A stretch of 64,000 bases of DNA from Struthio camelus (Eukaryota; Chordata; Aves; Struthioniformes; Struthionidae), in assembly GCF_040807025.1 (NCBI RefSeq), contig NC_090946.1, positions 81,156,641-81,220,640 of the forward strand, read 5' to 3'. The notes beneath the pieces are model-generated. The model ran no database searches and was not told the DNA's origin. It saw only the letters and a program-made list of their open reading frames with translations. This document shows positions 15,257-54,627 of this stretch, in pieces. A program made the position numbers and the translations under genes. Position 1 is the stretch's first letter; the number at the start of each line of letters is the position of its first letter.

Positions 15257-17200
<1,944 letters not shown>

Positions 17201-22235: not shown

Positions 22236-25200
22236 AATATCTGACAAAAGCATTTACAATACCTGAGCATGTTCTAGATTACCTGAAAAATGTGACCTCT
22301 TGGAAGGAGTTCAGTTTCACATACCTGCTGAAGAATTAAAAGCCTTCTCAGGTCCTTGGCAACACCCAGTGAGTTACTGGGTAGCCTACAGAAGTTAAAT
22401 ATTTTAAAAGTAAGCAGTGGCTGACAATGTGTCACTGGATTAAGTGCCTGTTTTATGCTGCTGTGGACTGACAGCCTAGAGAGTAAAAAGTGATTATGGC
22501 TATAAAGTGATTATGGGTTAAAGCCCGAGGAAAAAGATAGCAAATATCTGTAGGACCTCTTGGTAACTCCATCTGGGTCTGTCGGCAAGGCAACCTCTTC
22601 CTTATCTTTCCTTCCATAGTGAGGAACTTACTGGTGGTGCAGGCACCAGCGTTTGCATCTATTGATTTTGATGGTTTTGTAAGACCATGTTTGCATGTTC
22701 TGTCCTCCACTAGTGATAAAGTGCTATCAGAAGAATGCGCTCAAAGAAAATAATACATGTTTGGCTTTACATAATAGCCATTACAACAGAACAAGCAAAT
22801 GTCAAGGAAATGGGTCAATAACCCCCTTTGTTATTACCTCTTTGAATGTAATTTACCTTTCCAATTAGATTAGCAGTCCAAACCTATTTTAATAAGGTAT
22901 AGCTCATCTTGCTTACTTTTCTCGCCTTTTTTGGCAGAGGGAGATGGCAAAAGACTCTGTCGCACTAATCCTTCAAAGACCTTATGGCTTCCCAAGGAAG
23001 GAGAGGGGAATATAACAATAATATTTTTTAAATAACTATTTTAGATAAATTCTTCTCCTGTGGTGAAAATGAACAATATTCTTGAAATTACAGTCGCATG
23101 TCACTGGAGCTTTTCTTATCTTCAGGATAGTTGCCACAATGGGCCCAATGTCTTCTTTGGCGGGGAGACAAGTTAGACAAGCATTTTCCATGAATGACTT
23201 GCAATGGTCACTCCTGGCAATAGGCAGGGAGTGGTGGAGATGGTGCCCCCGGGCATCTCAGCCTTATTTCCTGTGCTTCTGAGATGTCCATGAAAACCTG
23301 CCTTCAGTCTGTGCAACCGCAGCTGGGTTTGGCCAGGAAACTGCACCTTTAGTCTGGGGCGTATGTTCTTTATTGGCAGCGTGGCATTAAACAGCTCCTC
23401 AGGCCCTTCACATAAGACATAACAGAGTTAGGGAAGGAGTTAAGATGATAAGTTGGCGTCACACAGTATTCTCATTCGAACAGGTTTCTGTTAGCCAGTG
23501 TGTGTTCTGAAATGGTGTAGTAAGGACCCTGAAGAACAGCCAGAAATCCCACATGTCTCCTCAAGGGCAAGCTGTATCCTGGTGTCTGGAATTCTTCCAG
23601 CCTTCTGTGGGAGCAGGGGAAGAGCCCTTTGAAAGTGGCCTCTCAACAGGAGAAACAGGCTGTTTGTGTTTGTTTGTTCAAGTACCTCAAAATGCCTTTG
23701 CATTTACTCTTGGCAAACAAACCAAACCGGCTTCGCTTTTCACAGGTTATTTTCAGGAGCAGACAGAAAAAAAAGTAGGTGGGAAATACTGTATCACCTC
23801 ATTTCCATGTGCCAAAATCCTGAATCACCGTGATGACAGTAACAGCCTGAAATACCATGAAATCTTAACCAAAGTAATAATTTGAAGAACTTTTCCTTCA
23901 GTCTCCGAGTTTTTCAATTTCACATTCCATATTAAGCAGCAGCAGACACAGCAGTGGCCTCTAGGTCTTGGCTGGGCCTAGGGGCTTATGCCCTGGAGGC
24001 TTTTACCCTGAGGTTGTGCCCATGATGTGGGCATGTCTGAGAAGCTCAAGGTGGTGGGGCTTAGCAGCTAGTGCTGAACAGGCCGGCAGAAATCTGCTCT
24101 ATTCTGCATCCACACTGTAACGCAGAGGGGTTTTCAGAGGCAGTTTCCTGGGGGAGGGATCAAAACAGGCGAGGTCTTTTTTCCTGTAAAACACGGTGTG
24201 TTTTAGCCCTCCTTCGAAGGCGGCTCTGGCTCCAGATGCAGTGGAAGCGTTACCCCATGGCCACAACATCTCCAAGAGCTGATGAGAAGTGTCTAGCTCT
24301 CGCTGGGGTTCAGAGCTTGGTGGGAGCCCGTTCTTTGCACAGAGCCCAGAGCCCAGCTTAGCTGCATTCTGGCTCCTGGGACACTTGGGTAGGTCACTAT
24401 TTTGATACCGTCCTCCTCCAAGGAGGAGTATTTCTTCCCCAGCGAGAGGTATGCAAGCTAGCCCTGCACTCTGCTCCCCTGCATTTTTGTCAAATGCTCT
24501 TGAGGCTGTGTATGTATAGGTGCCAGGATCTTCTGCAAAATGAGTATTTTCATATGGGATAAAAAGTGTGTATTTGTGGCCAGAAGAAATAGTCCCTGAG
24601 TTTCTGGGTGGAGGAAGGGATGGGAGAGGGATGTCAGGCCCTGCTGGGGAGTGGCAGAAAGAGCACAGTGGTCAGGCTTTTGAATATTATGCCTGTATGC
24701 ATGGCCTGCATGTCTCTCCTTTTTGTGGACATCAGGACTACCTTTTCTTCTCGTGTCCATGACCTCTAAGTCATTATCCTAATGCCTTTAACTAAAATGC
24801 TAGCTGTTGCTGACAGCTCTTCTTTAAGTAGATGATAGGAGCCTGGAGCAAGATGTCTTGCCCGCGCCACACTAATACCCTTAATGACTTCGGGCTTATG
24901 CGGCACTGGGGAAGATCTTGTTTGTCGTTTCTGGGATGGGATTGCCCTGTGTGTACTTAAGCCCTGGGCTCTGCTCCACCTACTTGGGTCAGGTGGTGTG
25001 GAAGAAATGCTTAGGTACCTCTTGGAGTGGCTGCCAGTGGGTCTGGCCTTGGTCAGGAGGTATGTCCATGCCTTGGGAAAGAGGCACGCCCGAGCTTTGG
25101 TCAGGAGGTATGTCCATGCCTTGACCCTTGTGCTAAGAAATGCAATGCAAACACACTCGTCCGTACGGGTCAAGGTTGAACCGGCTCCAGGCTGGCTCTG

Positions 25201-26105: not shown

Positions 26106-26404
26106 GCCGGGCACCGTGGCTGGTGCCTGTAATCCAAGCGCCGGGGAGGCTGAGGCTGGTGGACGGCTTGAGCCCGGGGGTTCTGGGCTGCGGCGCGCTG
26201 TGGCGAGCGGGCGTCCGCGCTAAGGCCGGCATCGATATGGTGTCCCCCGGGGAGCCAGGGGGCCCCAGGTCGCCTAAGGAGGGGTGAACCGGCCCAGGTC
26301 GGGAACGGAGCAGGTCAAAGCTCCCGTGCCGCTCAGTAGCGGGACGGCGCCTGTGAACAGTCCCCGTAGTGCAGCCCGGGCAAGAGAGTGGGACCCAGCC
26401 TCTT
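26106..26404 (+). ncRNA. RN7SL: 7SL (SRP) RNA gene, divergent copy 1
   Basis: Full-length 7SL of about 299 nt. It holds the Alu domain at the 5' end, the S domain with the helix 5/6/8 core (GGTGAACCGGCCCAGGTC), and the 3' strand that re-pairs with the Alu end. 7SL is the RNA scaffold of the signal recognition particle. The first Alu-domain hairpin pairs perfectly: GGCACC (26110-26115) with GGTGCC (26122-26127), around a loop keeping the conserved GG. The helix-8 tetraloop is GGAA (26302-26305), still of GNRA type. Internal Pol III boxes sit in the first 80 nt (B-box-like GGCTTGAGCC). It ends at TTTT (26403-26406). No poly(A) tail or target-site duplication is evident, unlike a retropseudogene. 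Whether it is transcribed is unknown. Confidence 0.85.
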
Positions 26405-26406
26405 TT
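26403..26406 (+). terminator. Pol III T4 terminator of 7SL copy 1
   Basis: Minimal oligo(dT) tract, one T shorter than that of copy 3, directly at the 7SL 3' end. Confidence 0.6.
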
Positions 26407-27230
26407 GGCATCTTTCTTTCCCCCTGCTCGATGCTGCACTTGTCAGCTCCAGCACCGTCTGTTCCGGGGAGCAATCGTGAAAGGGTCCGGTAGCGCTGGG
26501 GAAAGGCAGAAGCACCTTCTACAGACGTTAATAGCGAAGATGCTGTTGCAGCCTTGCTCCTTAGCGTGTGCTCAGGTTTCGGTTGCTTGTGCTGTGATTT
26601 CTTGCAGCACTGAGAGGTCACGGTGCAGGACTCTGCCAAACTTTTTTGGATCCCAGTGGATTTAACTACTAAAATGGGGAATCAGCAGCATTTCCCATTG
26701 TACTTCTGCCTCAGAGACTCTGCATTCCTGCGAGTCAGTTAACAGCAGGGTTAGTAACACCTTAGGCAGCCTGCCCCAGACCGAGACCAAGTCTCTGGTT
26801 CGTGGGAATGTCTCACTAGCCTGCTCCACTGGGTACTTACTGTCACAGCTCATTAGTGTCATCAGCTCTCAGCTTTAAGCTCTTCGGACAACATGGAGTG
26901 GTCAGTTAAGAAGCCTCTAACCAGTATTTCAAAGCTGGGAGTAGGGCATCTCTCAACCTCTCCAGTAAATGAAGAGGGCCAAGCCGTCCAAGTCTTGTAC
27001 TGGAGATAAAGCACCACCATGTGCCTCTTTTGGCTTAAAATGAAAACTCTGGGCTTTCTCAACTACTGAAATCTACTGCTGCTCAGAAATCTTTCTTTCT
27101 ATGTATTCATCCATTCTTAAATGTAAAACGCAAGCCACACAAAGACTGTTCTCTCAGTTGCCCACTGCCCCTCTGTGGCCAGGCAGAGCCCGTGCAAGAT
27201 GGGTCTCGAGGAAAAATTACTTGAAAAACA
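26405..27230. other. Spacer between 7SL copies 1 and 2
   Basis: No gene recognised. The sequence directly flanking copy 1 is not repeated around copy 2, so the duplicated unit appears limited to the 7SL body. Confidence 0.5.
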
Positions 27231-27530
27231 GCTGGGCACGGTGGCTGGTGCCTGTAATCCAAGCTGCTGGGAGGCTGAAACTGGTGGACGGCTTGAGCCC
27301 GGGGGTTCTGGGCCGCGGTGCGCTATGCCGAGCGGGCGTCCGCGCTAAGCTCAGCATCGATATGGTGATCCCCGGGGAGCCGGGGGTCCCCAGGTCGCCT
27401 AAGGAGGGGTGAACCGGCCCAGGTCGGGAACGGAGCAGGTCAAAGCTCCTGTGCTGATCAGTAGCGGGATCGCGCCTGTGAATAGTCCCCGCGGCTCAGC
27501 CTGGGCGAGACAGCGGGACCCAGTTTCCTT
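27231..27530 (+). ncRNA. RN7SL: 7SL (SRP) RNA gene, divergent copy 2
   Basis: Full-length 7SL of about 300 nt sharing many differences with copy 1: a GTAATCCAAGC segment in the Alu domain, ATCGATATGG in the S domain and a GGAA helix-8 tetraloop at 27427-27430. The first hairpin is GGCACG (27235-27240) with GGTGCC (27247-27252), five pairs plus one G-G mismatch at the loop end. It ends at TTTT (27529-27532). There is no A-tail. The second base pair of the RNA end is altered (GCTGGG for GCCGGG). An AT-rich patch 10-25 bp upstream could act as a TATA-like element. It may be a functional variant or a young pseudogene. Confidence 0.82.
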
Positions 27531-27532
27531 TT
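27529..27532 (+). terminator. Pol III T4 terminator of 7SL copy 2
   Basis: Four T residues at the 3' end of the 7SL-like sequence. Confidence 0.55.
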
Positions 27533-27896
27533 GCACGTTCAGGCCATCGAAATGGGAAAAGGAGGGAAAGGAATAGAGGAATAAATGGAGGAGTTAAACA
27601 GAGGAATAAATGGAGGGGTCTCTAAAAGGGCAGGAAGAGAGCCCAGAAACTCGTCCCTCGATCAAAGAGACGCCCCCGATCCTCCACTAGCCCCCAGCTG
27701 GATCTTACAGCGAGGCAAAGCCCCAAACCGCTGTTAGCGTGAGGAACCCGGGCTTGCGCGGCCCTCCCCGAGCAGAGGGCAGCAGCCCACCCCGCCGGCG
27801 GGGCCCGACAGGAGCTCGGAGGGAGCGGGGCTGGTGGCGGAGGCCTTGCCCGGGCCGGCGGGAGGCTCTAGTAGGCGGCGGGGCGGGCAGGCCGGC
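27531..27896. other. Spacer between 7SL copies 2 and 3
   Basis: Contains an imperfect direct repeat around GAGGAATAAATGGAGG near 27573-27617. The right half is GC-rich and would hold the upstream promoter of copy 3. I see no clear CRE or TATA element. Confidence 0.5.
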
Positions 27897-28195
27897 GCCG
27901 GGCGCGGTGGCGCACGCCTGTAGTCCCAGCTACTCGGGAGGCTGAGCCCGCCGGATCGCTTGAGCCCAGGAGTTCTGGGCTGCAGTGCGCTATGCCGAGC
28001 GGGTGTCCGCGCTAAGGCCGGCATCAATATGGTGATCCCCGGGGAGCTCGGGGTCACCAGGTTGCCTAAGGAGGGGTGAACCGGCCCAGGTCGGAAACGG
28101 AGCAGGTCAAAACTCCCGTGCCGGTCAGTAGTGGGATCGCGCCTGTGAATAGCCACTGCAGCGTAGCCTGGGCAACACAGAGAGACGCGGGCTCT
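27897..28195 (+). ncRNA. RN7SL: 7SL (SRP) RNA gene, canonical copy 3
   Basis: A 299-nt sequence very close to human 7SL along its whole length. It starts GCCGGGCGCGGTGGCGC, with B-box region GGATCGCTTGAGCCCAGG, S-domain segment GCATCAATATGGTGATC, the helix-6 hairpin with GGAG loop, and the helix-8 GAAA tetraloop at 28094-28097. It ends in a GCTC-T5 terminator (28195-28199). The RNA assembles with SRP9/14, SRP19, SRP54 and SRP68/72 to target ribosomes to the ER. This is the best candidate for the transcribed gene. It lies in the same orientation as NEMF, its 3' end about 290 bp before the NEMF start codon. Human RN7SL2, as I recall, also lies between NEMF and ARF6, so the locus is probably ancestral. 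Confidence 0.95.
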
Positions 28196-28199
28196 TTTT
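28195..28199 (+). terminator. Pol III T5 terminator of 7SL copy 3
   Basis: TTTTT immediately after the 7SL 3' end, the standard Pol III stop. Confidence 0.8.

Positions 28200-28486: not shown

Positions 28487-54627
<26,141 letters not shown>

Follow-up and report, generated by a model that had tools for sequence, protein, structure and literature searches.

Two divergent 7SL copies between ARF6 and NEMF in Struthio camelus: probable SRP RNA paralogues that evolved under structural constraint

The 7SL loci of vertebrates are generally divided between a handful of active genes, nearly identical in sequence, and a large number of dead copies. An earlier note on a stretch of Struthio camelus DNA (64,000 nucleotides, here called the window) described two divergent full-length 7SL copies that appeared to keep RNA structure despite sequence change. 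Scanning the whole window against Rfam with cmscan, we found three matches that exceed the gathering score, each of them to RF00017 (Metazoa_SRP; cut-off of 70 bits), on the plus strand and across model positions 1-299. The three copies lie between ARF6 and NEMF, with a fourth full-length copy beside RPS29. We take these neighbors to be ARF6, NEMF, and RPS29 on the basis of protein letters matched in six-frame translation.

15260-15784, minus strand: ARF6 open frame, border of the cluster, with its start near 15784 (six-frame motif search)
26106-26404, plus strand: copy 1, divergent full-length 7SL (SRP RNA) gene copy (RF00017, 234.1 bits)
27231-27529, plus strand: copy 2, divergent full-length 7SL gene copy, better preserved than copy 1 (RF00017, 262.2 bits)
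27897-28196, plus strand: copy 3, canonical 7SL gene (RF00017, 274.1 bits)
28487-29525, plus strand: start of NEMF, with its ATG at 28487 and an exon piece at 29469-29525 (six-frame motif search)
G000:C5:81320582-81320881, minus strand: copy 4, fourth full-length 7SL copy, 136 kb away

Copies 1 and 2 are full-length members of RF00017, as the note had claimed: each matches the whole model above the curated cut-off, and neither score falls far below that of copy 3, an outcome that the note had named as refuting. The span given for the pair, 26106..27530, was correct at its start, while its end lies one base beyond the Rfam end of copy 2, within a T-run that continues to 27532. The composition correction in the covariance score was 26.9 bits for copy 1, 12.9 for copy 2, and 8.9 for copy 3, so the score gap between copies 1 and 3 partly reflects GC content, and plain decay as the reason for the lower score of copy 1 was rejected in part. 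Copies 1 and 2 are identical at 264 of 299 columns in a gapless alignment, with 35 differing sites. Identity to copy 3 was 246/300 for copy 1 and 249/300 for copy 2, with a single-base gap in each alignment and 53 and 50 differing sites, respectively (17-18% divergence). The two copies were also said to have differences from copy 3 in common; this held at 31 model sites, and at six further sites all three copies differ.

A search of the 1.45-Gb genome (262 contigs) with RF00017 returned at least four full-length matches above the cut-off and at least two weak ones (35.4 and 34.5 bits); because scoring covered 26 of the 29,750 candidates from the first look, four full-length copies is a lower bound. 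A DNA search with copy 2 gave five matches, namely these four loci plus a 62-base piece (L011), around which the Rfam model scored 31.5 bits. Together with two other loci, L005 and L006, this piece provided three decayed 7SL copies for comparison. The L005 copy (1690-1501, minus strand; G000:C12:24691068-24691257) is a 190-nt 7SL-derived piece with an Alu-like layout, in which most of the S domain is missing. At L006 (1927-1501, minus strand; G000:C3 near 75496870-75497153), two bases separate a U4 snRNA-like copy (RF00015, 51.8 bits, full model) from the decayed 7SL copy that follows it on the same strand, an arrangement that resembles a chimeric retrocopy but could alternatively represent two insertions. 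Within the window, 25046-25123 holds three copies of a 30-nt repeat, spaced 24 bases apart, of which the second is 70% and the third 97% similar to the first, and a 23-nt direct repeat (91%) occupies 27572-27619, directly downstream of copy 2. No tRNA genes were found by ARAGORN with the bacterial code.

The evidence for constraint comes mainly from paired positions. Standard pairs occupy 102, 104, and 103 of the 120 Rfam model pairs in copies 1, 2, and 3, respectively. We simulated substitutions of the same number and kind at random sites with matching base and CpG context, a comparison that requires no ancestor when made directly between copies 1 and 2. In the direction from copy 1 to copy 2, which involves 35 substitutions, six pairs were compensated compared to 0.5 expected, with 0 of 10,000 simulations reaching six, and three standard pairs were newly broken compared to 12.2 expected. 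In the reverse direction there were again six compensated pairs (0.7 expected; 0 of 10,000 simulations reaching six), and five pairs were newly broken compared to 13.5 expected.

Changes private to each copy followed the same pattern. Copy 3 served as the outgroup, and the ancestor of copies 1 and 2 was assigned by majority with copy 3 or, at the six sites where all three differ, from the Rfam consensus if matching and otherwise from copy 1. The copy 1 branch (18 substitutions) had one newly broken pair compared to 7.3 expected (P 0.0001) and two compensated pairs compared to 0.12 (P 0.005), and the copy 2 branch (17 substitutions) had one newly broken pair compared to 4.6 (P 0.007) and four compensated pairs compared to 0.18; the branch and pairwise compensation tests use overlapping data and are not independent. 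When copy 3 was the reference, copies 1 and 2 each newly broke five pairs (19.5 and 15.9 expected) and each showed 11 compensated pairs (1.6 and 1.4 expected), results that are stronger yet less informative for these two copies, since the changes may have occurred in the canonical copy.

Shuffling gave a similar picture. In a MAFFT alignment of the three sequences, 15 pairs had changed on both sides compared to a shuffled mean of 5.6, a number reached by 0 of 500 shuffles, and structures slid along this alignment had only 0-1 such pairs. Four of five shuffle measures on the three sequences were reached by 0/500 shuffles, and the fifth, further pair types, by 2/500. Minimum free energy (MFE) z-scores fall from -3.54 for copy 3 to -2.58 for copy 2 and -2.03 for copy 1, which counts against intact function of the divergent copies. 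When depletion of differences was compared in three regions, helix 8 (model 168-221) alone was depleted, with 1 of the 35 differences between copies 1 and 2 compared to 6.3 expected (P 0.006). By branch, it held 0 of 18 differences for copy 1 (P 0.02) and 1 of 17 for copy 2 (3.1 expected; P 0.15), so that depletion on the branch of copy 2 itself was not significant. Judged from these substitution patterns, copies 1 and 2 evolved under structural constraint after diverging from each other.

The individual RNA motifs agree with the note's description. In copy 1, the first hairpin places GGCACC (model 5-10) opposite GGUGCC (17-22; GGTGCC in the DNA) to give six standard pairs. The corresponding letters in copy 2 are GGCACG, forming five of six pairs and leaving 10-17 open as G-G. 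The conserved GG of the hairpin loop, which the note had reported as kept in both copies, is invariant in all three. Also invariant are G13, G14, C34, and C37 in the helix 3 and 4 loops, which we take to be residues with tertiary roles, and the Alu-domain U-turn UGUNR is kept as UGUAA at 26128-26132 in copy 1 and 27253-27257 in copy 2. The reported change of the helix-8 tetraloop from GAAA in copy 3 to GGAA in copies 1 and 2, still of GNRA form, was confirmed at the following positions.

26302-26305, plus strand: helix-8 tetraloop GGAA, copy 1
27427-27430, plus strand: helix-8 tetraloop GGAA, copy 2

The GGAA variant had no exact match in viral or other genome contig collections. GGAA is given as the commonest helix-8 loop of archaeal SRP RNA in the passages of PMC2905702 drawn on here, so the change leads to a known functional form. 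Under the loop rule in the same passages (helix-6 GNAR, helix-8 GRRA), both adenosine clamp loops are present in copies 1 and 2, as GGAG in helix 6 and GGAA (GRRA/GNRA) in helix 8. The SRP54-binding internal loops of helix 8 are kept, alignment columns 183-215 being invariant except for 199, the tetraloop change. The adenosine of the 5e loop, equivalent to human A240, whose role is described in PMC2995471, is present in all three copies, and the loop reads AUC in copies 2 and 3 but ACG in copy 1. Every named RNA motif is therefore intact in copy 2, though its pair 10-17 is open.

We consider it fairly probable that copies 1 and 2 are old SRP RNA paralogues in the ARF6-NEMF cluster that evolved under structural constraint, with copy 2 competent and copy 1 eroding. 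They would have split from the canonical genes and then from each other while continuing to evolve as folded SRP RNAs, with substitutions accepted mostly where the fold tolerates them or together with a compensating partner, and with the SRP54-binding helix 8 left nearly untouched. RNA polymerase III would have transcribed both from their internal boxes as far as the T4 run, and the products would have been assembled into SRP or an SRP-like particle. It is likely that both copies functioned as genes over a long period, and they may do so even now. Copy 2 is predicted to be probably still competent and is the better candidate for present function. Erosion of copy 1 appears to have begun, at its 5e loop and at pair 98-250.

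Whether these copies could be expressed was considered from their promoter elements and terminators. The A-box and B-box positions in copies 1 and 2 were placed from 7SL/Alu biology and are presumably the internal promoter elements.

26117-26127, plus strand: A-box-like internal promoter element, copy 1, TGGCTGGTGCC (pattern match)
26180-26188, plus strand: B-box-like element, copy 1, GTTCTGGGC, letters as in copy 3 (pattern match)
26403-26406, plus strand: T4 terminator-like run, copy 1
27242-27252, plus strand: A-box-like element, copy 2, TGGCTGGTGCC (pattern match)
27305-27313, plus strand: B-box-like element, copy 2, GTTCTGGGC (pattern match)
27529-27532, plus strand: T4 terminator-like run, copy 2
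27866-27873, plus strand: TATA-like box CTCTAGTA at -31/-24 of copy 3, with the letters of the mammalian 7SL consensus (as given in PMC7279448)
28195-28199, plus strand: T5 terminator-like run, copy 3

Pattern matching on letters only finds internal A and B boxes in copies 1 and 2, together with a terminator of at least four T in each; that both end in T4 was among the original observations. All three copies have identical B-box-like letters, and in the A-box-like element copies 1 and 2 depart from copy 3 at four positions. According to the promoter description in PMC7279448, mammalian 7SL genes carry CTCTAGTA at -31/-24 and a CRE, TGACGTCA, at -51/-44, and mutating the TATA-like box or the CRE of human 7SL costs about 4-fold or 2.5-fold in vitro, respectively. 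Copy 4 has both elements, exactly placed, and copy 3 has the TATA-like box only. At -31/-24, CTCTAGTA is absent from copies 1 and 2, which read TGGAGAGC and TGGGTCTC, and the CRE at -51/-44 is absent upstream of copies 1, 2, and 3. The flanks of copies 1 and 2 showed no similarity beyond shuffles to those of copies 3 and 4 or to each other. Without a TATA-like box and a CRE, strong expression of copies 1 and 2 is doubtful, and the missing elements argue for weak or differently regulated expression; for copy 2, we would expect a low or restricted level for this reason.

The same absence of the TATA-like box and CRE would suit a different history, in which copies 1 and 2 were real genes for most of their existence, lost their upstream promoter, and are now recently silenced relics. 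The lower score and altered 5e loop of copy 1 point in this direction, as does the finding that L005, L006, and L011 are each nearer copy 3 than copies 1 or 2, which suggests that the canonical RNA fed the decayed copies and is the abundant one. However, the private branches each added just one broken standard pair, although recent silencing would still fit this number because few neutral changes would have accumulated so far. The copies have also stayed CpG-rich, with observed/expected values of 0.76 (copy 1) and 0.77 (copy 2) compared to 0.24-0.42 in the flanks, except that the interval between copies 2 and 3 as a whole, which runs into the NEMF CpG island, has a value of 0.73. On balance, we regard silencing of both copies as possible but doubtful.

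Changes on both arms of a helix could also arise from mutation or copying rather than selection, either by gene conversion, with a functional paralogue outside the sample as donor, or by template switching inside a hairpin. The family does contain a tract resembling conversion: copy 4 is identical to copy 3 over 300 nt as well as 40 bases upstream and 12 bases downstream, after which similarity ends on the upstream side, and this shared stretch (roughly -40 to +312) has the appearance of gene conversion. Because its upstream end falls slightly short of the CRE, copy 3 has a TATA-like box without a CRE. Among the changed pairs, 48-295 and 49-294 were altered side by side, as such copying might produce. 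Against this account, the genome searches yielded at least four full-length copies and five DNA matches with copy 2, and the six compensated pairs are distributed across helices 5 and 6, their partners separated by 19 to 247 positions, making short tracts an unlikely source. We therefore consider a mutational or copying origin improbable. In the preferred reading, that of paralogues under constraint, copies 1 and 2 would have stayed distinct by escaping the homogenization that keeps copy 3 the same as the copy on the RPS29 side.

The decayed copies show what relaxed 7SL sequence looks like in this genome. CpG decay, which the earlier note had allowed as a cause of some of the changes, was rejected, as copies 1, 2, and 3 hold 28, 25, and 27 CpGs compared to 3, 2, and 4 in L005, L006, and L011. 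From the 27 CpG positions of copy 3, 14 are kept in copy 1 and 12 in copy 2, the remainder of their CpGs being at new positions; the decayed copies kept 1/19, 0/27, and 2/21 canonical CpGs in their aligned stretches, counting deleted ones as lost. Relative to copy 3, L005, L006, and L011 have 8, 13, and 4 gap events and 43, 65, and 44 mismatches, while copies 1 and 2 have one gap event. Their newly broken standard pairs (5, 24, and 3) were close to chance (6.2, 22.4, and 4.2), as were their compensated pairs (0, 3, and 1 compared to 0.68, 2.29, and 0.96), although with 27, 92, and 32 readable pairs the weight of this control lies mostly with L006, and the L011 stretch was selected by eye.

Signs of retroposition were also sought in the flanks. 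In the 25 bases preceding and the 30 to 60 bases following copies 1 and 2, no A-tail was present, in agreement with the note, and comparison of the 25 preceding with the 30 following bases of each copy gave no direct repeat beyond chance. Retroposition with an A-tail or target-site duplication thus left no sign in the flanks searched, and the features of a retropseudogene (A-tail, target-site duplication, and decay of pairs and CpGs) were not found in copies 1 and 2. Flank similarity ends sharply at both ends of the copies, so the copies may have arisen either by an old duplication at the DNA level whose flanks have since decayed or through an RNA intermediate. That the copies are ordinary neutral 7SL pseudogenes altered by CpG decay and chance is very improbable: the absent external promoter and the very common occurrence of 7SL pseudogenes in the human genome (PMC4378963) would fit, but pair retention, compensation, CpG number, and few indels set them apart from L005, L006, and L011, no A-tail was found, and such a history is contradicted by the simulations and the decayed-copy control. 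Of the original proposal of paralogous SRP RNA variants under structural constraint, the constraint is upheld by simulations, shuffles, and the decayed-copy control, beyond what was first claimed; present activity of both copies is so far not, given the absent external promoter elements and the altered 5e loop of copy 1.

The locus itself has a counterpart in human, where RN7SL1, RN7SL2, and RN7SL3 form a cluster on chr14 and the RN7SL genes are nearly identical among themselves. The neighbors are the same, copies 1-3 being flanked here by ARF6 and NEMF and copy 4 being adjacent to RPS29, but in Struthio camelus two of the four copies are divergent. Since human RN7SL2 overlaps lnc-NEMF-1, as stated in PMC12893535, the ARF6-NEMF site looks like a conserved vertebrate 7SL cluster. 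Compared to metazoan SRP RNA as represented by RF00017, copies 1 and 2 share the full 299-position match and the helices and motifs of the family, but they differ by 17-18% from the canonical genes of their own genome, carry GGAA for GAAA, and lack external promoter elements.

The number of copies is in keeping with other birds. Gardner et al. (2015; PMC4378963) report four annotated SRP RNA loci in chicken, only two of which were confirmed by RNA-seq (a point against the preferred reading), and a median of three loci in 48 birds; at least four full-length copies are present here, and divergent constrained paralogues do not appear in the part of that description considered. Copies 1 and 2 share a 7SL origin with 7SL retropseudogenes and Alu-like elements, and SINE copies also lack the -50 element according to PMC7279448; unlike L005, L006, and L011, copies 1 and 2 have no A-tail, target-site-like repeat, or decay. 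In the miiuy croaker, 24 7SL copies are described, of which one is particularly active and eight adjoin on one chromosome (PMC11893794). Multiple 7SL genes are thus common to both species, but a structural-constraint test on divergent copies is absent from the portion of that report used here. A literature search covering titles and the starts of abstracts, with subscription journals mostly outside its scope, recognized no divergent constrained 7SL paralogues in an amniote among the matches listed, which is weak evidence of novelty.

These data make the locus a well-founded and testable example of paralogy among SRP RNA genes, within a family and at a type of locus that are both known. More tentatively, and with some doubt, the lineage may maintain two kinds of SRP RNA, one canonical and homogenized (copies 3 and 4) and the other divergent and evolving separately (copy 2, possibly joined by copy 1). 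The divergent kind would carry a GGAA loop, be driven by a promoter of its own and serve certain tissues or the germ line, making SRP itself heterogeneous. Because the genome has few 7SL copies and reads can be assigned to each locus, the use of more than one SRP RNA is directly testable. The presence of constrained and decayed copies in one genome could help annotation pipelines separate the two, and copies that are 17-18% divergent yet keep their fold would form a third class of 7SL loci.
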